This document shows, one piece after another, positions 2,708 to 18,454 of a stretch of DNA of 44,964 nt (positions are counted from its first letter, which is position 1; the number at the start of each line of letters is the position of its first letter). The translations under genes and the position numbers were made by a program. The notes beneath the pieces are model-generated. The model saw only the letters and a program-made list of their open reading frames with translations, did not search any database and was not told the origin of the DNA. This DNA is from Bacteroidales bacterium (GTDB lineage: Bacteria; Bacteroidota; Bacteroidia; Bacteroidales; UBA10428), in the NCBI GenBank assembly GCA_016938235.1, contig JAFGVA010000078.1, positions 1 to 44,964 on the forward strand, written 5' to 3'.

Positions 2708-3340
2708 TTAATCAAAATCGAGTTTAAACTTATTTTTGAGCTTCTGTAATGCCGGATTTTTCTCTACCATGTGACTTAATTTTTCCTGATCGGAATATAA
2801 GGTAGGTTTCTCCATCTTTTCGACTTCAGCAACATTTTCGAGAATATCAAAAGCATCAGTTTCCAGTTTTTCCTTTAAATAGCTTAACAATCCGGGTTTT
2901 GCTCGTAACTTAAAATCTTCGAGTTGAGCATTATTCTGAAATACCAGTTCAAGTTTTTCGTTTGCAAATACCGGTTTTTGTGCATTTAAGGCTGAAAACA
3001 ACCTTGGGTGTTCTGTTTTTAATTTATTAAGATAATCCTGGTAATACTGAAGTACACTTTCTGAATCTATTGATTTTGAGGTCTTTGAAAATGAATTTTG
3101 TTCCGGAATTGAGGTCTCGGTTTCACTGCTTTCGCTTTTTACTAAAGGTTTATTTATAGTATTAATTTTGTTCAGGGTTTCTTTTAAGGATGGCGACTTC
3201 TCAAGTTTGGGTTTTTCGGGGGGAGGCATTGATTCTGATGTCTTTTTTCTCCCTGAAGGAGTTTTTCCTGTTCCTGAGGGTTGAATTGACTCATTCAGCT
3301 CATTACCTGTTAAGAAAAGGATGTCTGATTCTGCGTTATT
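2708..3340 (-). CDS. dnaX: DNA polymerase III tau, C-terminal part (reached by frameshift from dnaX)
   Basis: This is the tau-specific C-terminal region of the clamp-loader subunit, in a different frame from the N-terminal part. From the A-run the frame is open without a stop and reads NNAESDILF, then a Lys/Ser/Pro-rich linker (MPPPEKPKLEKSPS). A compact helical domain of about 115 residues follows (VLQYYQDYLNKLKTEHPRL to the end). That domain would carry polymerase- and helicase-binding functions, as in other tau proteins. With one A fewer (or two more) the joined protein is 578 residues. The ATG at 3229 is probably not a real start because the open frame and the linker extend upstream to the slip site. 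The coding content is clear; how it is expressed is inferred. Confidence 0.8.
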   Translation of the reverse strand, partial: NNAESDILFLTGNELNESIQPSGTGKTPSGRKKTSESMPPPEKPKLEKSPSLKETLNKINTINKPLVKSESSETETSIPEQNSFSKTSKSIDSESVLQYYQDYLNKLKTEHPRLFSALNAQKPVFANEKLELVFQNNAQLEDFKLRAKPGLLSYLKEKLETDAFDILENVAEVEKMEKPTLYSDQEKLSHMVEKNPALQKLKNKFKLDFD

Positions 3341-4445
3341 TTTTTTTTTCGCTGCTAAGGTTGCAGATTTTCACAAGAGCCATTTCGACATGTAAGCGCG
3401 GATTTTTGCTTAATCTGAATGATACATCAGTTTCGCCACATATTTCAAGTGCATTAAAAATGAACTTATCGGTACAGTTATTAGCCTGTTCGATATATTT
3501 TTCCTTTATGCTTTGGCCTACTTCCAATAACTGAACAGTATTATTTGATTTACAAACAAGCAAATCGCGCATATGTCTGCTTAGTCCATTAATAAAATTA
3601 TGTGCATCAAAGCCTTTGTTCAATATTTCATCGAATAAAAGCAGGCTTTTAGGAACATTATTAGCCAGAAATGCATCGGTTAATCCAAAATAATATTCGT
3701 AATCCAGAATATTCAGATTATCAATAACAGACTGATAACTTATCTGGTTGTTCTCAGAAAAACTAACAACCTGATCGAAAATAGATAATGCGTCACGCAT
3801 TGCTCCATCAGCCTTCTGAGCGATTATGTTAAATGCATCGGCTTCATATTCAATAGCTTCGTTTTTGGCGATAGATTCCAAATATTCGACTGTATCTTTG
3901 ATTTGAATTCGATTAAAATCATAAATCTGGCAACGCGATAGTATGGTTGGAAGTATTTTATGCTTTTCTGTAGTTGCCAGGATAAAAACTGCATGTTTTG
4001 GCGGTTCTTCCAAAGTTTTGAGGAATGCATTAAAGGCAGCTTGCGAGAGCATGTGAACCTCATCGATAATATATATACTGTATTTACTTACCTGAGGTGG
4101 TATTCTAACCTGCTCTATAAGCGTTCTGATGTCATCAACAGAGTTATTTGATGCTGCATCAAGTTCGTGAATGTTGTACGATCGGTTTGTATTGAAACTC
4201 TTGCATGACTCACACTCGTTGCAAGGTTCTGTGTCGGCTCCCAGATTTTGGCAGTTTATAGTCTTCGCAAAGATTCTTGCACAGGTTGTTTTGCCCACAC
4301 CTCTTGGACCACAAAACAAGTATGCTTGTGCTAAATGGCCTGTTTTAATTGCATTTTTAAGTGTTGCAGTGGTGCTCTTTTGTCCGACAACCGATGAAAA
4401 TGTGGCAGGCCTGTACTTTCTTGCTGATACTATAAATTCTGACAT
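3336..4445 (-). CDS. dnaX: DNA polymerase III subunit gamma (dnaX zero frame)
   Basis: This is the ATPase of the replication clamp loader, which opens the beta sliding clamp. The 369 residues hold domains I-III. The Walker A motif GPRGVGKTT is at 46-54, zinc-binding cysteines at 65/75/78/81, the Walker B/DEVH motif (IIDEVH) at 126-131, and the sensor-1/SRC motif LSRCQ at 169-173. The reading frame ends SSEKKK followed by TAA, immediately after a run of 11 A, at the place where domain III should end and the tau-specific part should begin. The rest of tau follows in another frame (2708-3340). A TATATTTG -7 box lies 18 bases upstream of the ATG. Confidence 0.93.
   Translation of the reverse strand: MSEFIVSARKYRPATFSSVVGQKSTTATLKNAIKTGHLAQAYLFCGPRGVGKTTCARIFAKTINCQNLGADTEPCNECESCKSFNTNRSYNIHELDAASNNSVDDIRTLIEQVRIPPQVSKYSIYIIDEVHMLSQAAFNAFLKTLEEPPKHAVFILATTEKHKILPTILSRCQIYDFNRIQIKDTVEYLESIAKNEAIEYEADAFNIIAQKADGAMRDALSIFDQVVSFSENNQISYQSVIDNLNILDYEYYFGLTDAFLANNVPKSLLLFDEILNKGFDAHNFINGLSRHMRDLLVCKSNNTVQLLEVGQSIKEKYIEQANNCTDKFIFNALEICGETDVSFRLSKNPRLHVEMALVKICNLSSEKKK
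3338..3350 (-). other. dnaX slippage site (G-A11-T)
   Basis: On the coding strand a run of 11 A is followed at once by TAA in the zero frame. Losing one A, or gaining two, joins the gamma frame to the tau C-terminal frame. Runs of nine or more A are known sites of RNA polymerase slippage, used in dnaX of Thermus thermophilus. A homopolymer sequencing error would look the same. Confidence 0.65.
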
Positions 4446-5274: not shown

Positions 5275-5299
5275 ACTGGTTTTCGCTTTTATGATCAGT

Positions 5300-5328
5300 T
5301 ATGCTGTTAATAAAAGACTATCAGCATA
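5300..5328. terminator. Hairpin between convergent genes
   Basis: TATGCTG (5300-5306) and CAGCATA (5322-5328) form a perfect 7-bp stem with a 15-base loop, in the 149-bp gap between the HTH protein and the polyketide synthase. No U-run follows on either strand, so a terminator role is tentative. Confidence 0.3.
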
Positions 5329-5423
5329 GTCAATAATCACATCTTGCCAACCGAACTTTAATAGATACAGTTGAAATTTTTTCCAGTACCATGTTATTAA
5401 AACTCAAAAACAAACTACTGAAA

Positions 5424-8400
5424 CTAATCTGTTATTGTTTTATCAAAAGTTTTCAGATAATTAATTACTGCTGAAGGATTACTTTTTACTTCTAAAATGG
5501 CTTGAGCATCTTTTCTGGAAGCCCAGATGATAGTATTTGAACCATAAGCTAACTTACGTCTTTCTTCTTCAGAGCTGCTATAATATTCAAAATAGAATCT
5601 TAACCCGTTATTATAAATTTTTTCAAGATACATCACTACCTCTATGGTTTCAAAAGGCATAGCTTCCTGCAAATGATTTACAGATGATTCGAGACAAATA
5701 TATTCACCGGCTTTACCATTACTATGGTATATTTCAGGAACTAACCTGTATAACAAACTATCCAATGTTTTCGACTGCCAGTCATAATAATTTGAATAGT
5801 ACAGATTACCTACTGTGTTGCCATTGTATAAACCTGTAGCATATTTTTCAGTTGCCAGAATAATTTGAGGACGAGGAATTATACCAGATTCATAAGTTAA
5901 CCCGCCTAAATCATTACTATTTAAATACGAAGATCCAGATGTCAGGTTTTCGAATTCTTTGTTTTTTGAAGGGTCAAAATATAAATCGATATATTTTCTG
6001 AAATAAGAAGGTATTGGGCTTTTTTTCACAATACCTCTATCTATTATTTCAACCCAGGTTGTCGACAGGTAGCTCTCTGCAATTAGAGTCCGTGTGCCGT
6101 CAGCATTGTTTTTATACCATTCGTATTTAAAATCGATGTAGGAATTATCAAAATCGCACTTATCAGTAAAACTTAAAGTTCCGGTTATAGTGTCCAAAGC
6201 TTCAGCTTCGTTGAAAACCTGCACTGACGAAATGTTTGTGACCATTCCATATTGACCGGAGCCCAAATCTTTTAATAACTCAACTTTTATGGGACTTAAT
6301 GCAATTTCGCGCAAACTTCCCATCCATGCCGGATAACCAAGGAAATAAGTCTTGCCAAAAAAGCCTTTGCAATCTTTAAATGTTATATTGAAATTATGAA
6401 TGAATTTATTTAAGGATTTATCAAATAACTTATCTGCAATATTCTCATATACAATTACTTTTTCGGATTTTGATTGAAGATGAACTTCTTGCTTAACCAG
6501 CGGTTCGACAATAAAAGAAACTATTTTTTCAACACCAGGATAAACTTCAATTGAGATAGTATTAATAAATAATTCATTATCAGTCAAACTTGTTTTAAAT
6601 ACAATGGATTTTCCGTTTCTTGAATATTCTTCAAGCTTCACAGGTTCTGCTGAAAAAGCCTTAAAAAACGATTCTTTTATACACCATAACCTGGTAGCAT
6701 AAGTATTAAAGTTTTCTGCTTTATTATTTGCAACTAATTTTGCTAAGTCAGAACCCAGCATTTCATTCCATATATCTTTATCTCTATATTGAACATATTC
6801 AATATCACAGCCTTGGGGCTCTTCTCCAATTGTGAGCATTAGCCATGTATTGGAGTGCGAAACAGATATACATCTATCATTACCTTCAAAATATGGCTTA
6901 CCTGCTTTGTTATACAACAAACTGTTGTTCTTATATTTAAACCCATTTTCAAGGAGTAAATTACTCGATTTTACAAGCAATTCATTTTCAATCTGATGCC
7001 TTGAATTCGTATCGACTTTATGCAATAATATAGGTTGTTTTTCAATTAAAATCAATGGCGATTTGAAGTGTTCTCTTGAATTAACTAAAGCTTCATCTAC
7101 CTTCTCTTTTACATTTTTTGCTATTTCTGTAATTTCTTTTGGAGATGGATATTCAGGTTTTTCTCCCAACTCCTGCCCGTAATATCCTTCAATAGATTCT
7201 ATTACCTCGCCTTTCTTATCGGAGAAGGTAACATTAGTCCTGTACATTTTATCTTTATGGTCGAGATATTCACATTTAATAAAACCACCTTCTTCCGGTT
7301 GATTTATTTGATGCATTGTCCAACGATCAATTTTAACCGGCAGCATGAGTTTTTTAGTTAAGATTAACTGAAATGATTGCAACAGGGTATCTCTCAGAAG
7401 CGGACTTTGTAATATAAAGGGTACCTGATAAGAATCAGAAAAACATTCTTCGCTGGTATCGGAAGAAATTTTCCGCGTCGATAACAGTGTATGAGAGTCT
7501 GTCATTTCATATACCTTGTTAATCAACTGAAATCTTTTACCCTGAAATAATAACCAGGAGTATAAATCGGTTTTAGGTTCTATTAATAATGGCTCATTAA
7601 CAGGAACTTTTGTTTTGGAAGTTTTTATCTCCGAATCAATAATAAATTCGGCCGAAAAATGATCTTCGAGGTAATTATTTTGGTCGGTTGCAACTCCGGC
7701 TTTAACAATAAATTTGCCCTTTTCGTTTAAAGATTCTTCAACGAATGCGCGTATTCTAATCTTGTTTTCTCCCTGATTTGGAACTACAACTGGTTTTGTT
7801 AGCTGAATATTCTCAATTACCAGATTTTTAAACCCGGTTTTTCCTGTTACAGCGGCTACTGCCTGAGCCATCGATTCCAAACCAAAAACTGTTGGGAATA
7901 AGAGGGAGCCGTTATAGTTATGATCCTCTAAATACAAATCAGTCTTCGCACTTAGTTTTGCATAAGCAACAATTTCAACTCCCGGCTCGAAATATCCTAT
8001 TTCTTCCAAATACCTGTTTGCTTTTGGTAATTCAGAATTTTTTCTTTCCCAGGTATCAAGACCTCCCAGTCGTGAAGCTACAACAACCTGCTGATCGTTT
8101 GCCGGAAACTCAATGTTTTTAAGGAAATATTCTATTCCCTGGTTTGGAGGTATAGCTCCGATTCCCATGTGCGAAAGTGTTTCAACACTTCCCATTCTGG
8201 CGCCCATGCCAACTTCGCTCCAAACGCTGTAAGCCAACGAGAGCGTTTGTGTTCCCTTCTCCCTGATTTGTCTTAAAAGCCTGTCGGAAGTTTCATTAGC
8301 AAATGCATACCATGCGTTACCTTTCATTCCGGTAATGCCAATAATTGAGCTAAACAGGGTGAACTGTTTTAGCTTATTTTCTGCAAAACAATTTATTAAA

Positions 8401-11400
8401 TTGAGTGTACCCATTACCTTTGGAGAAATCTCTTTAACAGCCTCTTCCCATGACACCATTGATGCAAGTCGCGGTACATTCCTGCCTGCCCCGTGAATAA
8501 TCATGGTAACTTTACCCAGTTCTTTTTCTGCTTTAATCTTAATTTTTTCAAGAGAATAGGAATCGGAAATATCGCAGGAATAATAACGGGCTGTCAGATT
8601 ATTGTCGCTATAACGTTTAAGTGTATCATAAATCTCTTTGTTGCCCGAAGATAATGGAGAGCTTCCCAGTAAAATTGTTTTATTCTTATACTTAAGGGCA
8701 AGTTCCAAACCACACTCGGCAGTTATACCTTTGGCCCCACCAGTAATCAGAACAACGTCCTCGCCGCCTATTTTAAATTTACTTTGTACTGAATTTTCAC
8801 CCACCAAATTATATTTCATTACAATCCTGTCAGCATTGTTATAGGTAATTGTCTGAAACTGTTTTTCAGTAGTCATCTCATCAGAAATTATTTCTGATAT
8901 GTTTTCAATACTTATATTTTCAGTTATTTCAATGGTTCTGATTTTACACTTTGGCCTTTCGAGATGTAAGCTGGCAGCAAATGCTGATGCACTTATACAA
9001 TTCACCGAACCTTTACTGCTCTTCCTATAAAAGCTGCCATCGCCGCGTTGCAGAAAACATATATCGGCTGCAATTAAATTCTGATTTGTAGCAATTGCAG
9101 CCAGCATCTGAGTATGTTGAACTATTGCTTCCTTGTCATTTCCGCCTTTTACATCAACAATAATGGTGTCGCCAGAAATACTATCCTGATTTTCAAAAAG
9201 TTCTTTTAGTGAAAAACAAGAAAACCGAGGGGTGTATTTTTCAATTTTGCTTTTAAATTTGTCTGACAGGCCATTTAATTTCTCATTGTCTGTAATAAGA
9301 GACACCTTTTTACCTGTCCAATATGAAGCTTCCAGATTTTTCGGTTTTACCAGAGGCTCTGAAACTAATTCCACTTCGAAATCGCGTACCCAGCTAAATA
9401 CATTTTCTTCATTAACAATAGGTTCCGGTTTTTTATCGGTTTTTTCGACAAGCCTTTTAACTGTTGAGATGATGTTACTTATTGTTTCATTGGAAAAAGC
9501 TGCTGCCTGGATTTTATTTTGTATTTTAAAATGCTTAGCAATTTCTGCCAAAAGACTTCCAGCTTTAATGCTGTCAAGGTTTAAATCATCCAACAACCTA
9601 AATCCCATATTGATAGATTCAGAGGGAAAACCTGTTTTTTCTGAAACCAATTCAATAATTGCATCTTCAACAGATGTTTGATCGGGTTTTGGTACCTCAA
9701 TTGTTTCTGTAGGTAATACTTCTTCGAAAGCCGTTATAATTTGTTTTATGTTGGCATTGGCATAATTTGAAGCATTAATTTTCCCTGCTACAGAAAATTC
9801 TTTTGAAAGAGATGAAATTAATGTGCCAGCTTTAATACTGTCGAGGTTTAAATCATCCAGTAATTTCATATCATCTTTAAAAGCATCGGTTGGAAATCCG
9901 GTTGCTTCTTCCAGTTTACTATAAAGTGAGCTGGCAAAACTCACACTACGGTTTGCTAAGCCAGGTTCAATTACAGCTAATTTAATATTGCCCGATGCAT
10001 TGGTTTTGGTCTTCTCTTCAACGAAAACAGGCTGAACCAGCGAATCATGAAAGTGTTTCATATCGACCTGAATAAACTCCTTTAAGAATTCGCCACGTTT
10101 TGAGAGGTAGGATGAAAATGCATCTCCGGTAATTCCGGTAAAGTCGAACACTGAATTCACTGAATTAAAATCCAAATTGCTGTCAGATGACTGAATATCA
10201 ACTGGTAATGGCCTTTCTAATGGATTAACGAGGAATTTTCTTTCGGTGGCAGGCACAAAAGTCCGAATCAAACGATTCTGATATAAAACATCAATTTTAA
10301 GATCAACCCCATAAACATAAAGATTTGCCAGGGCAACATTGTATGACACATCGTCATTCGCATAGCTTTCTACGGGAAAACTTTTAACTTCATTGGTTAT
10401 ATTTTCGATAAGCCCTGATAATACTCTTCCCGGACCAACTTCAATTACAATATCACATTTGTCCTTTAGCTGCTGCACTGCCTTTACAAAATCTACCTGT
10501 TTAACAGCCTGATTGGCAAAATATTCACGCAAATTAACTTCATTGTCTAATATCTCACCTGTTACAGTGCTTAAGACCTTACACTTATTTTTTGATGATG
10601 CAGTAGGTTTTAATATTTCTGATGCTTTAATTGAATCAGATGCTTTCGAGATTAAATATGAATGAAAAGCTGCAGAAACGGGTAATTTTGCTGCTCCTAT
10701 GTGTTTGTTTTCAGCTACCAGAATTAGTTTATCAATAGCCTTTTCATCTCCACTAACAACAGTCTGTTGGGGTGCATTAATATTTGCTATGGTAACATAT
10801 CCATCAACTTCAGAAATAAGCTCTTCTGCCTCTTTTTGAGTACAAATAAGACTTGCCATTGCACCCAATCCTGAATTTGACATTACATCGCCTCTAAATC
10901 CGGCAAATAGTACAAGCTCTTCCTCATTTATATATCCGGCTGCGTAAAATGCTGCTAACTCGCCCAGGCTGTGGCCTATTGCCAGGTCAAACCCAATGCC
11001 AAGCTGTTGTAGATTTTTATACCACATTAAGCTTGCCAGAATAATAGCAGGCTGAGCATTTTGTGTTTGTTTTAATATATCTCTCCATTTCAGCTTATCG
11101 GTTAAATCAGTAATCCTTTCAGTCGATCTGAAAATCTTATCAGAAATATTTGCATAGCCAGCATCCGACAAAATCTTATCATACTTAAGGTACAATTCTT
11201 CAACCCAGTCATGTCGTTCTTTCTGTTTATAGGTCATATTTAGCTTTTGTGAGCCTTGACCCGGAAAAGCAACAGCTATTTTAATGTTTTCCTTCTTTTT
11301 ACCATAAACTATTGTGTTGCCTTCAATTGATTTTATTTCAGAAATACCACTCTCCTTTAACTTTTCAATCAATGTGTAGATTTTTTCAGCCAAATCGAAT

Positions 11401-13058
11401 GGCGTTTTTGCCACAATTGAGGCACGATACTTGTGTTCACTTTTAATGTTGGTGTTTAAATAATAGGCAAAGTCGGCCAATTCGGCATAGCTGATACCTT
11501 TTGCCATGTAACTGCATAATTCCAGCTCAGCAATTAAATCGTCAACAGAGGGTGATGAGAAAATAAACACTTCAGACTCCTGATTTGAAACCATGAGTTT
11601 ACGTTCAGAAACAGAAGGTTTAAGCTTTTCAGAAGGTGCGTTGCCAGAACACAATACCGCATGGCTATTTATTCCACCAAATCCCATGGCAGAAACTCCG
11701 GCGAATAATATTTCCGATGGGTTTTTTATTTGTCCGAAAATAAGAGGATATATAGTTTTTGCTTTATCTTCGAAAATTGGATTAAAATCTTTAAGCCCTG
11801 CAGTGGGAGGCATAATTCTCTGGTCTAATGCCATAACAGTTTTAATAAAAGCACCAACCCCGGCAGCAGCTTTTGTATGTCCTACAATCGATTTAAATGA
11901 TGTAACACCACAATTTCGAGGTGGTATTTTCTTCTTGTTATTTAATGCTATTGTAATACCTTCAAGCTCAATTTTATCACCAACCGTTGTGCCAGTGCCA
12001 TGACCTTCAATGAAATTAATTTTCTTTGTATCGATTCCTGCTTTTTCATAAGCGCGTATAAGAGCTCTTGATTGCCCCAGGGCACTTGGTGCTGTTATTC
12101 CGCCTTTTCCATCAGATGAGATTCCCCATCCCAATAAGCTTGCATATATTGTATCACCATCTCTAACAGCATCTTCCATTCGCTTCAGAACAACCATTCC
12201 ACAACCTTCTCCTGGCAGGAAACCCTGGCCCTGTTTATCATAAACACGCATTTCATTTCGTGTTAAAGCTTTGGTTTTTGAAAAACCTATTAGCTCAAAT
12301 GTGTCCAGGCTTATATCTACACCTCCGGCAATAACCATATCCATTTGGTTAAGTTCCAGGTAATTTGCCGCTGTTATAATGGCAAGAAGGGATGAAGAAC
12401 AAGCACCATCCACAATGTAACCACCACCATGAACATCTAAATAATTACAAATTCTGCCGGCAATGGTGTTTGCAAGACCTCCCGCCAATGTATCTTCGGT
12501 AACCGGAGCGAAAACCGATTTATAATAATACTCCATGGTAGAACTTAAATCACTTAAATGATGACTTAAGCCTTTTTTTAACAGAGAAGCTTTTAAAACT
12601 TTGCGTACAAAAGGCCATCTTAACGACATCTGATTTGACCTCGTGAATTCACCTGTTAAGGTATTTCCCAAGACCACCCCGGTTTTATCTTTTAAAATAT
12701 TTTCTTTCGAGTAATCGGCATCTGACAAAGCTTTTAGAGCAGTATCCAAAGCTAACCAATGAACTATATCTGTGCTGTCATATGTGCGTTTAGGTATTCT
12801 CCGTTCTAACCAATTGAATTCATAACCATCAATAACAGCTGCTTTGTTTTGGTATGTTTTGTCCGGTGCCTCAGGATTAGAGTCATAATATTCTTTGTTT
12901 GGCAACCTGACATCGGGCATTTCGCGAAATTGTTGCCTGCGACTTAAAATGTTTTCCCATAATTCTGATGGAGAATTTGCACCCGGATAATAACAAGCTA
13001 AACCAATAACTGCAATTTCACACTTTTGCTGAGATTTATTGTTATTTAAAGAATTCAT
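5424..13058 (-). CDS. Enediyne-type iterative type I polyketide synthase with fused PPTase and hotdog thioesterase
   Basis: A 2,544-residue megasynthase. KS (1-470): Cys220 in VDGACSSS, His353 in EGHGTGT, His394 in VGHTKAA; the flanking RICNYLDVHGGGYIVDGAC is typical of enediyne PKS KS domains. AT (594-890): Ser697 in GHSLGE, His799 in AAFHS, so malonyl-CoA is likely. Two ACPs carry DDLNLDSIKAG, with pantetheine serines at 1074 and 1163. KR (1430-1670): TGGAKGIT, Ser1570, Tyr1584, Asn1588. DH (1695-1960): His1713 and Asp1890. A 4'-phosphopantetheinyl transferase (2000-2185): SVSHS, GCDIE, WCIKESFFKAF. C-terminal tandem hotdog (2205-2540) with WMGSLRE and VGNLYYSNYYDWQ. Known enediyne PKSs are about 1,900-2,000 residues with one ACP and a separate thioesterase. 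All catalytic residues look intact. A polyene product is inferred. No Shine-Dalgarno or consensus promoter was seen. PUFA or glycolipid synthase is the alternative. Confidence 0.9.
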   Translation of the reverse strand: MNSLNNNKSQQKCEIAVIGLACYYPGANSPSELWENILSRRQQFREMPDVRLPNKEYYDSNPEAPDKTYQNKAAVIDGYEFNWLERRIPKRTYDSTDIVHWLALDTALKALSDADYSKENILKDKTGVVLGNTLTGEFTRSNQMSLRWPFVRKVLKASLLKKGLSHHLSDLSSTMEYYYKSVFAPVTEDTLAGGLANTIAGRICNYLDVHGGGYIVDGACSSSLLAIITAANYLELNQMDMVIAGGVDISLDTFELIGFSKTKALTRNEMRVYDKQGQGFLPGEGCGMVVLKRMEDAVRDGDTIYASLLGWGISSDGKGGITAPSALGQSRALIRAYEKAGIDTKKINFIEGHGTGTTVGDKIELEGITIALNNKKKIPPRNCGVTSFKSIVGHTKAAAGVGAFIKTVMALDQRIMPPTAGLKDFNPIFEDKAKTIYPLIFGQIKNPSEILFAGVSAMGFGGINSHAVLCSGNAPSEKLKPSVSERKLMVSNQESEVFIFSSPSVDDLIAELELCSYMAKGISYAELADFAYYLNTNIKSEHKYRASIVAKTPFDLAEKIYTLIEKLKESGISEIKSIEGNTIVYGKKKENIKIAVAFPGQGSQKLNMTYKQKERHDWVEELYLKYDKILSDAGYANISDKIFRSTERITDLTDKLKWRDILKQTQNAQPAIILASLMWYKNLQQLGIGFDLAIGHSLGELAAFYAAGYINEEELVLFAGFRGDVMSNSGLGAMASLICTQKEAEELISEVDGYVTIANINAPQQTVVSGDEKAIDKLILVAENKHIGAAKLPVSAAFHSYLISKASDSIKASEILKPTASSKNKCKVLSTVTGEILDNEVNLREYFANQAVKQVDFVKAVQQLKDKCDIVIEVGPGRVLSGLIENITNEVKSFPVESYANDDVSYNVALANLYVYGVDLKIDVLYQNRLIRTFVPATERKFLVNPLERPLPVDIQSSDSNLDFNSVNSVFDFTGITGDAFSSYLSKRGEFLKEFIQVDMKHFHDSLVQPVFVEEKTKTNASGNIKLAVIEPGLANRSVSFASSLYSKLEEATGFPTDAFKDDMKLLDDLNLDSIKAGTLISSLSKEFSVAGKINASNYANANIKQIITAFEEVLPTETIEVPKPDQTSVEDAIIELVSEKTGFPSESINMGFRLLDDLNLDSIKAGSLLAEIAKHFKIQNKIQAAAFSNETISNIISTVKRLVEKTDKKPEPIVNEENVFSWVRDFEVELVSEPLVKPKNLEASYWTGKKVSLITDNEKLNGLSDKFKSKIEKYTPRFSCFSLKELFENQDSISGDTIIVDVKGGNDKEAIVQHTQMLAAIATNQNLIAADICFLQRGDGSFYRKSSKGSVNCISASAFAASLHLERPKCKIRTIEITENISIENISEIISDEMTTEKQFQTITYNNADRIVMKYNLVGENSVQSKFKIGGEDVVLITGGAKGITAECGLELALKYKNKTILLGSSPLSSGNKEIYDTLKRYSDNNLTARYYSCDISDSYSLEKIKIKAEKELGKVTMIIHGAGRNVPRLASMVSWEEAVKEISPKVMGTLNLINCFAENKLKQFTLFSSIIGITGMKGNAWYAFANETSDRLLRQIREKGTQTLSLAYSVWSEVGMGARMGSVETLSHMGIGAIPPNQGIEYFLKNIEFPANDQQVVVASRLGGLDTWERKNSELPKANRYLEEIGYFEPGVEIVAYAKLSAKTDLYLEDHNYNGSLLFPTVFGLESMAQAVAAVTGKTGFKNLVIENIQLTKPVVVPNQGENKIRIRAFVEESLNEKGKFIVKAGVATDQNNYLEDHFSAEFIIDSEIKTSKTKVPVNEPLLIEPKTDLYSWLLFQGKRFQLINKVYEMTDSHTLLSTRKISSDTSEECFSDSYQVPFILQSPLLRDTLLQSFQLILTKKLMLPVKIDRWTMHQINQPEEGGFIKCEYLDHKDKMYRTNVTFSDKKGEVIESIEGYYGQELGEKPEYPSPKEITEIAKNVKEKVDEALVNSREHFKSPLILIEKQPILLHKVDTNSRHQIENELLVKSSNLLLENGFKYKNNSLLYNKAGKPYFEGNDRCISVSHSNTWLMLTIGEEPQGCDIEYVQYRDKDIWNEMLGSDLAKLVANNKAENFNTYATRLWCIKESFFKAFSAEPVKLEEYSRNGKSIVFKTSLTDNELFINTISIEVYPGVEKIVSFIVEPLVKQEVHLQSKSEKVIVYENIADKLFDKSLNKFIHNFNITFKDCKGFFGKTYFLGYPAWMGSLREIALSPIKVELLKDLGSGQYGMVTNISSVQVFNEAEALDTITGTLSFTDKCDFDNSYIDFKYEWYKNNADGTRTLIAESYLSTTWVEIIDRGIVKKSPIPSYFRKYIDLYFDPSKNKEFENLTSGSSYLNSNDLGGLTYESGIIPRPQIILATEKYATGLYNGNTVGNLYYSNYYDWQSKTLDSLLYRLVPEIYHSNGKAGEYICLESSVNHLQEAMPFETIEVVMYLEKIYNNGLRFYFEYYSSSEEERRKLAYGSNTIIWASRKDAQAILEVKSNPSAVINYLKTFDKTITD

Positions 13059-13321
13059 ATGTAAGGAGTATTTACTTTATGAAAAAATGATATTTCGCAT
13101 AACTAAAAAACTGACGATTTCTGAAATACCACAATAATTCAAGTAGTTAATAAATAAATTGTTGATATGTAAGTAATTATAAAATCAGACTTTTTTGAAC
13201 CTTTATACTCTGAGAGATTGGTGGTTAAAACCAACAATAAAAACATAAGAACTCGAAACATGAATTAATAAAATAAATGTTTGAGCAAATCACATTAATT
13301 AACAGTCAGGTTTTTTATTAA

Positions 13322-13756
13322 TCAAATGAATGAGGTTTCAACACCTTTACCTACTTTAAGCCAATTCTTAGCCTCTCCCATTGAACTAAAAGCTCTTATA
13401 TCCAGCGAATTGTCAGAGCGTTTATTAGTAAAATCAACATAAAACTTCACTGCCCATTTACCAAAAATATTTTCAGGAACCACAAATGCTACTTTCTTAA
13501 CGCCTAATTTATAAGCCCTGTTATTAACATTTTCGTTTAACCAGTTTAGATCATCCCTTCCTACGGTTTTTAATTGGCGGGCATCATTCAACCATGTAAT
13601 ATTAGGGTAGGTACTGATTTTCTTCTCAACAAAATCAATACCCACTCTGAAAGGTTCCCGGAAATTATCCCCCTTTATGTATCCGTTTGGAGTCCAAATC
13701 ACACATGGAACCTGATCATCAAAAGTTACAATTGCTTGATCGTTCTTAAATATCAT
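13322..13756 (-). CDS. SpoIIAA/STAS-like protein
   Basis: A small soluble protein of 144 residues with alternating strands and helices. It includes a WLNDARQLKTVGRDDLNWL segment, a KKVAFVVPE strand and a C-terminal FSSMGEAKNWLK helix, the pattern of SpoIIAA-like (STAS-fold) proteins common in Bacteroidota. No catalytic residues or signal peptide were recognised. It is 263 bases upstream of the polyketide synthase on the same strand, so co-regulation is possible, but the gap argues against a tight operon. Its own upstream region carries an imperfect palindrome. Family assignment rests on pattern, and function is unknown. Confidence 0.6.
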   Translation of the reverse strand: MIFKNDQAIVTFDDQVPCVIWTPNGYIKGDNFREPFRVGIDFVEKKISTYPNITWLNDARQLKTVGRDDLNWLNENVNNRAYKLGVKKVAFVVPENIFGKWAVKFYVDFTNKRSDNSLDIRAFSSMGEAKNWLKVGKGVETSFI

Positions 13757-13782
13757 AAGTGAAAAAGATTAAATAGTGAGTA

Positions 13783-13805
13783 TACCTGTAATATATTATT
13801 TCAGG
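13783..13805. promoter_or_regulatory. Imperfect palindrome, possible operator
   Basis: ACCTGTAATA (13783-13792) and TATTTCAGGT (13796-13805) are complementary at 9 of 10 positions. They lie 27 bases upstream of the STAS-like gene. It could be a binding site for a dimeric regulator; the rest of the 13757-14100 gap is AT-rich without further structure. Confidence 0.35.
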
Positions 13806-14100
13806 TAATAAAAATATGAAATAATGAATAGCTGTTCGTCACAATTTATGATGATTAAGAGTAATTAAACAGTATTAACTGAACGTTTACTTTATATACA
13901 TAACATAACGTCTTAAATGTATACAATGCTAATAATCAATAGAAATGAATTGTTGAAAAAAAAACTAAGCGTATTTATCGAAGAATGAATCTAAATAACA
14001 TAATATTGTAAGTTTACTTTTTAAAGTATAATAAACTTCCTGAAAAATTATAATCAAAAGATATTCCCCTGAAAATAACGGCAATTACTTTGTTTAAATT

Positions 14101-14131
14101 TTTGATTATAAAAAGAATTAGATTATTTTTG
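14101..14131 (+). promoter_or_regulatory. Promoter of the rpsF-rpsR-rplI operon
   Basis: TTTG (14101-14104), a 19-base spacer and TATTTTTG (14124-14131) match the Bacteroidota consensus TTTG-N19/20-TAnnTTTG exactly. The leader to the rpsF ATG is about 50 bases. Confidence 0.75.
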
Positions 14132-14185
14132 CGGCTCGAATTTTTAAAACTATATAGTTTAATTATTAATTAAATTTTAGAAAAA

Positions 14186-15745: not shown

Positions 15746-18454
15746 CTAGAAGTTATCGTACCATGATTGCTTCTTTTCATATTTTAGATCTCTCAAAATG
15801 CTTGATTTTGCTCGTATTGTGAAATTAAAGTTTCGGGCAGTACCAAACGGAACCGTTCTGAAGGTCATTTCCCAGCAATGAAGATCTCTGTGAACATTAA
15901 TATTTGTAAAAGTTACCTCTTTAGAAACCAGATCGTAACCTGAGTTAAATCCTATTTTCCATTTAGGGGTAAGGCTGAAATCGCCATGAAAGCCTAAAGT
16001 GTGTGTAATAGTCTGGTCTGCCATCAGTTTTGGCCGGTTCAGTGTCCAGCTATAATCTACTCTAAGTGTCCAGGGAATACTAAAATCGACGTATGTGTTA
16101 TTTGCTGCAGAATAGCCGGGAACAAACTCAAAGTCAGGATTCAATGGATCCTGATAAGTATTAAACTCATCAACCTGCTCCTCTTGTTCTTCTTCCCGCG
16201 TTCCTTGTTCTGAACGTAAAGAAAAACCTGCGCTGACGCTCAGATAGGTAAAACGTGCCAGTCCTTTACCATTTCTGTAATAGAACTCATCAATAAGAGT
16301 AACTGTCTTTTTACCCTTAACACTGTCAACTTCCAAATCGTACAGACTGTACTTGTTATTTACCTGAAGATTTAATTTATTATTAAATAGCTGAGTGCTT
16401 CCGGAAATATTTACATCTCTCCAATGAAATTCTTCAACAAACGGATTGTATGATGTACTTGCATTCAGATTTCTTATTAATGACACTTTCTTAGGATCTT
16501 TTGTACCTGTTGTATCTGATTTATCTTTCACCTTCATCTCCAGGTTATTTCCCAAAGAGAGAGATAACACTCCATTTCGACCTGCACTAGAAGGAGGAGA
16601 ATTTAAATAAGAATAGGTTTCACGCTCAAGCTCCCCGTCCTGAAAATAATATAGAGTATCGTAATAATTGGGATTAATAAAACGCATATCAGGGGTATAA
16701 GAAAACGAAGCCCTGGGTTGTATTACATGCCTTACTGCTATAACCCTTGGATCGGACCTGGTATTAATAAACATACCATACACCTTTGGAGTTAAACCAA
16801 AACTTATACTTGGGTTTATGGCATGAGCGTATATGTAGTTACGAATGGTATCTGTTTGCAATACAGCATCGTCGTATAAATTAGGCTGAAACACCGTCTT
16901 TTTTGTGTACCAATTTTTAAAACGCCCCTGGTAACTTAATGAAGGGGAGACCGTTAACATCTTAAACCTCTTCGATTTCAAATTAATAACAAAGGGCACG
17001 CTATGCGAAAAATCAAAGTCCATATTCTTCCATGTTTCGCGATAAAAAATCATGGTATCTACTACATCCTGAAGTTCTGAGGAAAACCTTGAATTGTAGC
17101 TAAATCCGATATTATCAAGAATATCCTGGTACCATGCACTAACACCTTCAGCATCTTTCTTTCTGAATGGATAAATTGTTGACGCATTAAAAGAACCAGT
17201 TGGTAAATCGATATTTACAGTTTTTGTTGATGTGTTTTGCCTTGCATTGGCAGACAAACTCAAATTAAAAGGCGTTCCGGGCCAGTTCTTTGTATAACTG
17301 ATACTTGATGATTTTTGGTTGGTTAATCTATCCTGGTAACCATAGGAGTTATTAAGGTCAAATCCCGAACTTGAAAAGTTCACATTAGCAGAAAAGGATT
17401 GCGTTGGATTTGCTTTTGCATCCTGTCGGTGATTCCATGTCCACCTAAAATCCTTACTTATTTCCGTATCTGGATCTCCGCGTTCCGCTCCCCCTTTAAT
17501 GTTTTCATTATAATTTATCCTCATACTACCGCCAAACTTATAGCGAACTAAATAGCTTGATCCCCATTGTAATCCGAATGATCCTTTTGTGTAAACATCA
17601 CCCAGGAACTGCATATCGAGATATTCGCCCAAAGGTTGATACCAGCCACCATTACGCAGATAAAAACCACGCGTTTGTTCATCACCATATGTTGGTAAAA
17701 TAATACCTGCTCCGCGTTGTTTTGAATTTGGAAAAAAGCCAAAAGGCAGCCCCAATAAAGGTATTGGCACATCAGCAACAATTAAATATGCAGGTCCGCT
17801 AATAATTTTATCATCGGGAATAACAATTGCTTTGGTCAATTCCATATAAAAATGAGGATGATCTAAGTTACAGGTTGTGTATTTACCTCCCTTAACATGC
17901 ACATGCCCTTCGTTATCGCGTTTTGTAAGTTCACTGTGCAAATAACCTTCTCCCTGCTCCGTTTTTACATTATATATTAAACCTTTGCCCGATTCTAAAT
18001 TGTAAATGAGTGAGTCTGATTCAAACTCCTCACCTCCTTGTTTAAATAAAGGTCTGCCCAGGTATTTTCCTGTTGTATCAGAAACACCATTGGCAAAAAC
18101 TTCTTTTTTATTTAAATCAGATTCAATGTAGTCTGATGTTAACTCAAAATCCTGGTATTTAACATTTCCTTTTCCATACAAATAAACCCGCTTCTCCCCT
18201 ACTACCATTGTCATTGAATCAACCGATTCATAATAAACCGGATCATCAACAATAGATTTCTTTTGTTTTTTTTCTTTTTTCAAAGTATCTGCCGGATTGC
18301 TTAAAACCGAATCGGGTAAATGAACAGAACGCAATGAATCAGGTTGTTGAGCACAAAGCATTGTTGAAATCAACAGACTTGTTGTTGATAATACAAATTT
18401 TGCTCTGCTCAGAGAAAACAATTTTAGTGCTATTTTTGTAAATCTATTTACCAT
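15746..18454 (-). CDS. lptD: LptD-like outer-membrane LPS assembly protein
   Basis: A 902-residue outer-membrane protein of the Bacteroidota LptD type, expected to insert lipopolysaccharide into the outer leaflet. A signal segment ends near STMLCAQQP. An OstA/LptA-like beta-jellyroll region follows (GEKRVYLYGKGNVKYQDFEL, SDYIESDLNKKEVFANG), then a large beta-barrel with the conserved LPFGFFPNSKQRGAGIILPTYG stretch. I chose the ATG at 18454 over an upstream TTG at 18469, because the TTG overlaps a perfect -7 box. It is divergent from the amidase gene, with only 39 bases between the two start codons. Confidence 0.88.
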   Translation of the reverse strand: MVNRFTKIALKLFSLSRAKFVLSTTSLLISTMLCAQQPDSLRSVHLPDSVLSNPADTLKKEKKQKKSIVDDPVYYESVDSMTMVVGEKRVYLYGKGNVKYQDFELTSDYIESDLNKKEVFANGVSDTTGKYLGRPLFKQGGEEFESDSLIYNLESGKGLIYNVKTEQGEGYLHSELTKRDNEGHVHVKGGKYTTCNLDHPHFYMELTKAIVIPDDKIISGPAYLIVADVPIPLLGLPFGFFPNSKQRGAGIILPTYGDEQTRGFYLRNGGWYQPLGEYLDMQFLGDVYTKGSFGLQWGSSYLVRYKFGGSMRINYNENIKGGAERGDPDTEISKDFRWTWNHRQDAKANPTQSFSANVNFSSSGFDLNNSYGYQDRLTNQKSSSISYTKNWPGTPFNLSLSANARQNTSTKTVNIDLPTGSFNASTIYPFRKKDAEGVSAWYQDILDNIGFSYNSRFSSELQDVVDTMIFYRETWKNMDFDFSHSVPFVINLKSKRFKMLTVSPSLSYQGRFKNWYTKKTVFQPNLYDDAVLQTDTIRNYIYAHAINPSISFGLTPKVYGMFINTRSDPRVIAVRHVIQPRASFSYTPDMRFINPNYYDTLYYFQDGELERETYSYLNSPPSSAGRNGVLSLSLGNNLEMKVKDKSDTTGTKDPKKVSLIRNLNASTSYNPFVEEFHWRDVNISGSTQLFNNKLNLQVNNKYSLYDLEVDSVKGKKTVTLIDEFYYRNGKGLARFTYLSVSAGFSLRSEQGTREEEQEEQVDEFNTYQDPLNPDFEFVPGYSAANNTYVDFSIPWTLRVDYSWTLNRPKLMADQTITHTLGFHGDFSLTPKWKIGFNSGYDLVSKEVTFTNINVHRDLHCWEMTFRTVPFGTARNFNFTIRAKSSILRDLKYEKKQSWYDNF
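18431..18438 (+). promoter_or_regulatory. Possible -7 box for the amidase gene
   Basis: TATTTTTG matches TAnnTTTG exactly and lies 55 bases before the amidase ATG, inside the lptD signal-peptide coding region. No -33 element is found at the normal distance, so this is tentative. Confidence 0.3.

Follow-up and report, generated by a model that had tools for sequence, protein, structure and literature searches.

We report that a single gene in a 44,964-nucleotide stretch of Bacteroidales DNA, hereafter the window, encodes a polyketide synthase (PKS) that is best read as a horizontally acquired linear-polyene synthase. The window is the complete contig C164 of a draft genome (G000, 5.22 Mb in 239 contigs) which its relatives place in Bacteroidota. 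The gene lies on the minus strand at positions 5424–13058, starts with ATG and runs for 2544 amino acids without an internal stop, and both its family profile matches and its end-to-end relatives predict a single-chain iterative polyene synthase. Its class, an iterative type I PKS whose ketosynthase (KS) falls in the enediyne-type clade, is well supported, and we consider it probable (roughly 0.78) that the single chain is self-sufficient and makes a free linear conjugated polyene.

The overall layout is KS, acyltransferase (AT), two acyl carrier proteins (ACPs), ketoreductase (KR), dehydratase (DH) and phosphopantetheinyl transferase (PPTase), followed by two tandem hot-dog domains of the enediyne thioesterase (TE) type, D1 and D2, all on the minus strand. 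The KS (residues 11–480, positions 11619–13028, with C220, H353 and H394) is defined by Pfam, motifs and its place in the KS tree, and the AT (residues 593–906, positions 10341–11282, S697) by Pfam, NCBIfam and PDB matches that include the AT of DynE8. The first ACP (approximately residues 1040–1112, positions 9723–9941, S1074) was recognized from its LDSIK motif, with approximate boundaries, and the second (approximately residues 1126–1210, positions 9429–9683, S1163) from Pfam, NCBIfam and the same motif; by motif count, relatives of the PKS carry 1 to 5 ACPs. Pfam and motifs also identify the KR (residues 1436–1615, positions 8214–8753, Y1584) and the DH (residues 1696–1967, positions 7158–7973, H1713 and D1890). 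The integral PPTase, again with approximate boundaries (about residues 2040–2175, positions 6534–6941), matches PF01648 at 25.8 bits with a cut-off of 25 and carries the motifs GCDIE and WCIKES, in which a motif scan places D2085/E2087 and K2128/E2129. We take the motif residues of these six domain types to have the catalytic roles usual for them. At the C-terminal end Pfam returns a thioesterase-like match below cut-off.

These results bear on a preliminary description of the window made from its sequence. The intact reading frame with the KS cysteine at C220 is confirmed, and so is an integral PPTase, if just above the profile cut-off, while the single ACP given in the order KS-AT-ACP-KR-DH has to be replaced by two. 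The statement that every catalytic motif is intact is correct for the other domains and requires an exception for D2, since that domain lacks the usual Arg. The thioesterase-like region is indeed homologous to CalE7, SgcE10 and DynE7, as both sequence and structural matches indicate, and consists of two hot-dog domains.

The placement of the KS was evaluated in a tree of 59 rows. An enediyne-type clade of 26 rows (support 100/100) includes the window KS together with actinobacterial enediyne PKSs such as SgcE, which agrees with the earlier assignment of an enediyne-type KS and sets it apart from PfaA-type and modular enzymes. The clade holds a branch A (10 rows, 100/98), comprising seven actinobacteria, Aquimarina, the genome G172 and the cyanobacterium UBA11370, and a branch B (16 rows, 100/98) with the window and 15 others from several phyla. 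Outside lie a 19-row PfaA-type clade, two further rows resembling polyunsaturated fatty acid (PUFA) synthases, and 9 modular rows, whose position rules out a modular PKS. The two PUFA-like KSs (G008 9530 and G334 8463) pair together outside the PfaA-type clade; they belong to PUFA-like multidomain gene pairs in Bacteroidota (L037/L038 on G008:C75, and L099 in G334), with KSs distant from PfaA and one pair in the genus of the window. The tree leaves out L038, which overlaps L037, one of the two G334 KSs, 6 of the 18 cyanobacterial loci above the TIGR02813 cut-off (L104, L107, L110, L111, L126 and L128), and L119–L122, L129 and L130, which are below it. In an earlier tree of 39 rows the label for non-actinobacterial enediyne-type PKSs (nonact_PKSE) appeared in two places, as UBA11370 sits with the actinobacterial branch; it was relabelled cassette_PKSE after its neighbours had been seen, so that the single clade for that label follows from the relabelling, while the 16-row branch B is independent of labels. 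The "hgl" label of contig G063:C38 was likewise a guess: its KS at L093 8372 is inside branch B and that at 15802 is among the modular rows.

By architecture, the closest characterized system is RerA (KS-AT-ACP-ACP-KR-DH) and RerB (PPTase, an unknown domain Y, and TE) of Rhodococcus erythropolis PR4, reported in 2024 (PMC11563203). The RerA KS is enediyne-like and its tandem ACPs were likened to those of PUFA synthases (PMC11563203). In E. coli the pair yields polyenes with 6–9 double bonds, up to a C19 nonaene, as well as polyenones, with ACP-bound chains up to C22; in vitro, malonyl-CoA and NADPH give a yellow color, and fusing RerA to RerB through a linker strengthens the color (PMC11563203). 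The window PKS has the same layout, with two differences: it is one natural chain rather than two proteins, and the stretch corresponding to domain Y is a hot-dog domain. RerA and RerB are 219 and 61.5 kDa (PMC11563203); a virtual cut before the PPTase at four sites between residues 1960 and 2000 gives pieces of 217.4–221.9 and 67.1–62.5 kDa, the 219-kDa piece coming from a cut at residue 1975, one of the four tried, which demonstrates only that the sizes are compatible.

Because the RerA/RerB-like layout is present in one chain, we propose the same chemistry for the window PKS, with D1 likely, by analogy, the counterpart of domain Y; the enzyme would then act as a naturally fused RerA and RerB. 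The C-terminal PPTase would arm both ACPs, the AT would load malonyl units, and KS, KR and DH would iterate without enoyl reduction, for which reason each round would add one conjugated double bond. The hot-dog pair may then hydrolyze the (beta-keto or hydroxy) polyenoyl-ACP, with subsequent decarboxylation giving a polyene or polyenone.

The residues of the hot-dog pair suggest how release could occur. D1 (about residues 2215–2350, positions 6009–6416) is assigned from alignment, a predicted model and a structural match to CalE7 and SgcE10, with a weak phmmer match to SgcE10 (0.017), and places G2232, Y2242 and R2250 at the positions of CalE7 N19, Y29 and R37. D2 (about residues 2405–2530, positions 5469–5846), which matches CalE7 by phmmer (E 1.3e-7) and by alignment, keeps N2414 and Y2424 and has L2432 at the R37 position. 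Presumably these three positions have the functions in the fused domains that we attribute to them in CalE7. D1 could be located in 14 of 14 branch rows and D2 in all of them except G017, which is truncated by a contig end; the thioesterase Arg is found in all 14 copies of D1 and the Asn in none, while the Asn is found in all 13 copies of D2, five of which still have the Arg (two of them near-identical Laceyella rows). The text patterns used to excise the domains themselves contain Arg-Glu and Asn, and no row was lost by that. The Gloeothece protein, outside these counts, resembles the other rows by eye. Neither window domain holds the full set of counterparts, and since Arg is kept throughout only in D1 and Asn throughout in D2, the two probably pair within the chain as a pseudo-dimer that shares a single composite active site, to which D1 would give Arg and D2 would give Asn and Tyr. 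The FatA/FatB acyl-ACP thioesterases show 4–12% identity in the first 33 rows and are free-standing enzymes, unlike the fused D1/D2.

Relatives of the PKS are widespread and patchy. In the family, to which the suggested check for conservation in related genomes was applied, an orthologue is present in 4 of 23 genomes, and in 1 of 9 of the genus, several genomes being incomplete. Among 395 genomes sampled across the phylum, two besides the genome itself pass E 1e-120, G172 with a branch A (cassette) PKS and G334 with its PUFA-like pair; this search may undercount, since two candidates were scored per genome. An initial scan of the contig collection with a single protein gave 8 pattern matches, none of which was confirmed, and the scan of that collection now gives at least 14 loci, from Bacteroidales, Caenarcaniphilales, Thermoactinomycetaceae, a Phormidesmis, and deltaproteobacterial and Deferribacteres metagenome-assembled genomes (MAGs). 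Branch B includes at least 12 of them, two of which lie on contigs already represented by G010 and G017; the loci of Aquimarina and of a cyanobacterial MAG belong to branch A. In two cyanobacteria, Gloeothece and G063, the chain is split into two genes. The best 40 relatives listed from the plasmid collection are actinobacterial PKSs, most with enediyne-type neighbours or names, and the C-1027 enzyme is 33% identical to the window PKS over residues 8–2149.

Given this kinship, the PKS might be the core of a genuine bacteroidete enediyne pathway that is dispersed or has diverged. It shares with SgcE, CalE8 and DynE8 and their partners SgcE10, CalE7 and DynE7 the KS clade, the KS-AT-ACP-KR-DH-PPTase order and a homologous thioesterase, and Bacteroidota can carry enediyne cassettes. 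In Aquimarina acroporae (L056 4469–16019) DUF1702, an UnbV_ASPIC protein and a separate TE lie beside a branch A PKS, and in G172 (L098 7423–17209) DUF1702, CRTAC1 and UnbU lie beside a branch A PKS with a single fused TE. Both PKSs are nevertheless in branch A, apart from the window, and in each of the 10 branch A loci the PKS has one or more of DUF1702, CRTAC1/UnbV and UnbU as neighbours. DUF1702 is detected in Aquimarina, the cassette genome searched alongside those of branch B, and has no match in the whole of G000 or in any of the 13 branch B genomes, by one query in draft genomes. At 1e-3, genes of the CRTAC1/UnbV and UnbU types match in L055 and seven actinobacterial loci and have none in the window and further branch B stretches, the range over which they were searched. 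The observation in the preliminary description that the window lacks enediyne core genes is thus upheld, and for DUF1702 it extends to the genome. ACPs of the CalE8 type are single, with the motif H(L/M)(S/T/N)S(I/L), as stated in part of the text of PMC3107222; the window PKS has two with LDSIK (HMSSI-type in the enediyne enzymes), and its thioesterase is fused and duplicated, unlike SgcE with its separate SgcE10. A true enediyne locus was rejected on the absence of DUF1702, and a dispersed pathway seems very improbable.

Still less weight can be given to a synthase of the PUFA (PfaA) or heterocyst-glycolipid type. The tandem ACPs are as in PUFA synthases and TIGR02813 (PfaA) is the best NCBIfam match, yet it scores 577 bits with a cut-off of 1010, and of 11 genomes tested a single one, G066 and not G000, exceeds the cut-off. 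The partner check set out beforehand found no PfaD above cut-off in G000 (best 25.2 bits; cut-off 449.25), as against 601 bits in G066, and the remaining multidomain KS genes in G000 are located on contig C106 and form a hybrid pair of PKS and nonribosomal peptide synthetase (NRPS) genes rather than pfa or hgl partners. The window KS also lies outside the PfaA-type clade with its 17 cyanobacterial PfaA/HglE-like members, none of the 17 bearing the name HglE. A PUFA synthase was rejected on these grounds. The hybrid pair itself (L028 222–19888) has nitroreductase-family and flavin-reductase-family genes upstream.

A less remote, if still unlikely, alternative is that the polyene or fatty acyl chain is passed to other enzymes, becoming a lipid, glycolipid or halogenated pigment instead of a free end product. 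Some relatives have suitable neighbours: a Trp_halogenase-family gene downstream in Phormidesmis, a flavin amine-oxidoreductase-family gene downstream in Shimazuella, and, on a plasmid of Gloeothece verrucosa PCC 7822 (L100 2157–18213), a branch B synthase encoded by two genes, downstream of which lie three annotated tryptophan 7-halogenase genes, one of them checked with Pfam, and an RPE65-type oxygenase. The Gloeothece locus is possibly a halogenated polyene pathway. No tailoring gene is common to the loci, though, on clustering of flanking ORFs in 22 stretches; beyond the PKS and overlapping contig copies, the families found in at least three loci are the SpoIIAA-like family described below, one of 116–139 residues in four Thermoactinomycetaceae, with no Pfam match for the two members scanned, and the G013-L054 family. 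The possession of its own thioesterase also argues against a hand-over.

Several points weigh against a free polyene made by a self-sufficient chain. The product of the branch B enzymes is a prediction, the kinship to RerA/RerB is one of architecture, and fusion by itself does not signify a plain polyene, because G172 in branch A has a fused thioesterase as well. The composite site comes from alignment and a predicted fold, and in the rows whose D2 has its own Arg, the Arg of D1 is not necessarily the functional one. The PfaA profile as best match and the scope of the DUF1702 and CRTAC1/UnbU searches, given above, count on the same side.

The gene content around the synthase points to its acquisition. 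The locus is flanked by dnaX and icd on one side and by rpsF and rplI on the other, so that the earlier remark on adjoining ribosomal genes is accurate, and the description of the synthase as "lone" is only partly right: directly upstream, at 13322–13756 on the minus strand, is a SpoIIAA-like gene of 144 amino acids (PF11964, 26.2 bits, cut-off 25). In four of four same-genus stretches (G001, G002, G005 and G007; ORFs matched by eye) a dnaX-adjacent ORF of 191 amino acids is followed by rpsF within 167–438 bp, a distance of 8.9 kb in the window, which defines an inserted interval at 5275–14185. Since the junction is empty in these genomes, we read the PKS and the SpoIIAA-like gene as an acquired pair that may have arrived by horizontal transfer. 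The PKS carrier G010 also has a dnaX-rpsF junction without the PKS, which is on another contig. The G+C profile gives no sign of foreign composition, at 0.33–0.38 across the insert and 0.29–0.40 elsewhere.

Close homologues of the SpoIIAA-like gene (phmmer, at most 1e-42) are upstream of the PKS in 6 of 16 distinct loci, which are all the rows of one subclade (97/96), from four Bacteroidota genomes and two Caenarcaniphilales. Another gene intervenes in L050; the Caenarcaniphilales homologues themselves match no Pfam family, and two neighbours in L058 resemble PF11964 weakly, scoring below cut-off. Within the family, all 4 PKS carriers have a close homologue (E <1e-40), as does one of the 19 other genomes (G005), and including weaker ones the gene is found in 15 of 23 genomes; it can therefore exist without the PKS. 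In G005 (C111, L138 2081–2524) the close homologue has an adjacent gene that is ATPase-like by eye, and no PKS orthologue was found in that genome. We would give somewhat less than even weight to a wider proposal, in which the SpoIIAA-like gene and the one-chain synthase have dispersed among phyla together, as a minimal module for making polyenes. In this proposal the thioesterase would be obligately pseudo-dimeric: an enediyne-type hot-dog would have been duplicated and each copy would have lost the other's catalytic residue to leave one releasing site per chain, with RerB Y as the Arg-giving half.

The neighbouring dnaX (2708–4445, minus strand) is in two frames: an N-terminal ORF of 369 amino acids stops at a TAA immediately preceded by 11 consecutive A, and the C-terminal part is in another frame. 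A run of 10–11 A is at the same place in 5 of 6 other same-genus genomes read, four with a stop directly after, and dnaX is open in G002 (same genus, 586 amino acids) and G010 (another genus, 606 amino acids). The break is probably slippage that yields two products, not an error.

The suggestion that the pathway might be undescribed has to be modified, in view of the RerA/RerB polyenes (PMC11563203), the at least 12 branch loci, and the enediyne-type KSs from Bacteroidetes, Cyanobacteria and Firmicutes reported in 2023 (PMC10308959, from part of its text). Enzymes of this kind are already familiar from RerA/RerB and from surveys of KSs in metagenomes. The "enediyne-like" non-actinobacterial KSs of the 2023 report, drawn from metagenomes and RefSeq, are probably of the same broad group as ours; the available passages of that report class KS domains and mention neither a fused double hot-dog nor a two-gene island (PMC10308959). 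In the mainly open-access literature, supplements excluded, we found no description of the one-chain form, the double hot-dog or the two-gene island.

With the window PKS, a single gene would suffice to make long conjugated polyenes, and the enzyme would be of use in studying how chain length is set by enediyne-type KSs. Since branches A and B differ in gene content, it may also help to test what distinguishes enediyne formation from the production of plain polyenes, and it offers a residue-level, testable reading of RerB domain Y. The distribution of branch B points to uncharacterized polyenes from members of several phyla, among which are named strains of Laceyella, Shimazuella, Thermoflavimicrobium and Gloeothece.
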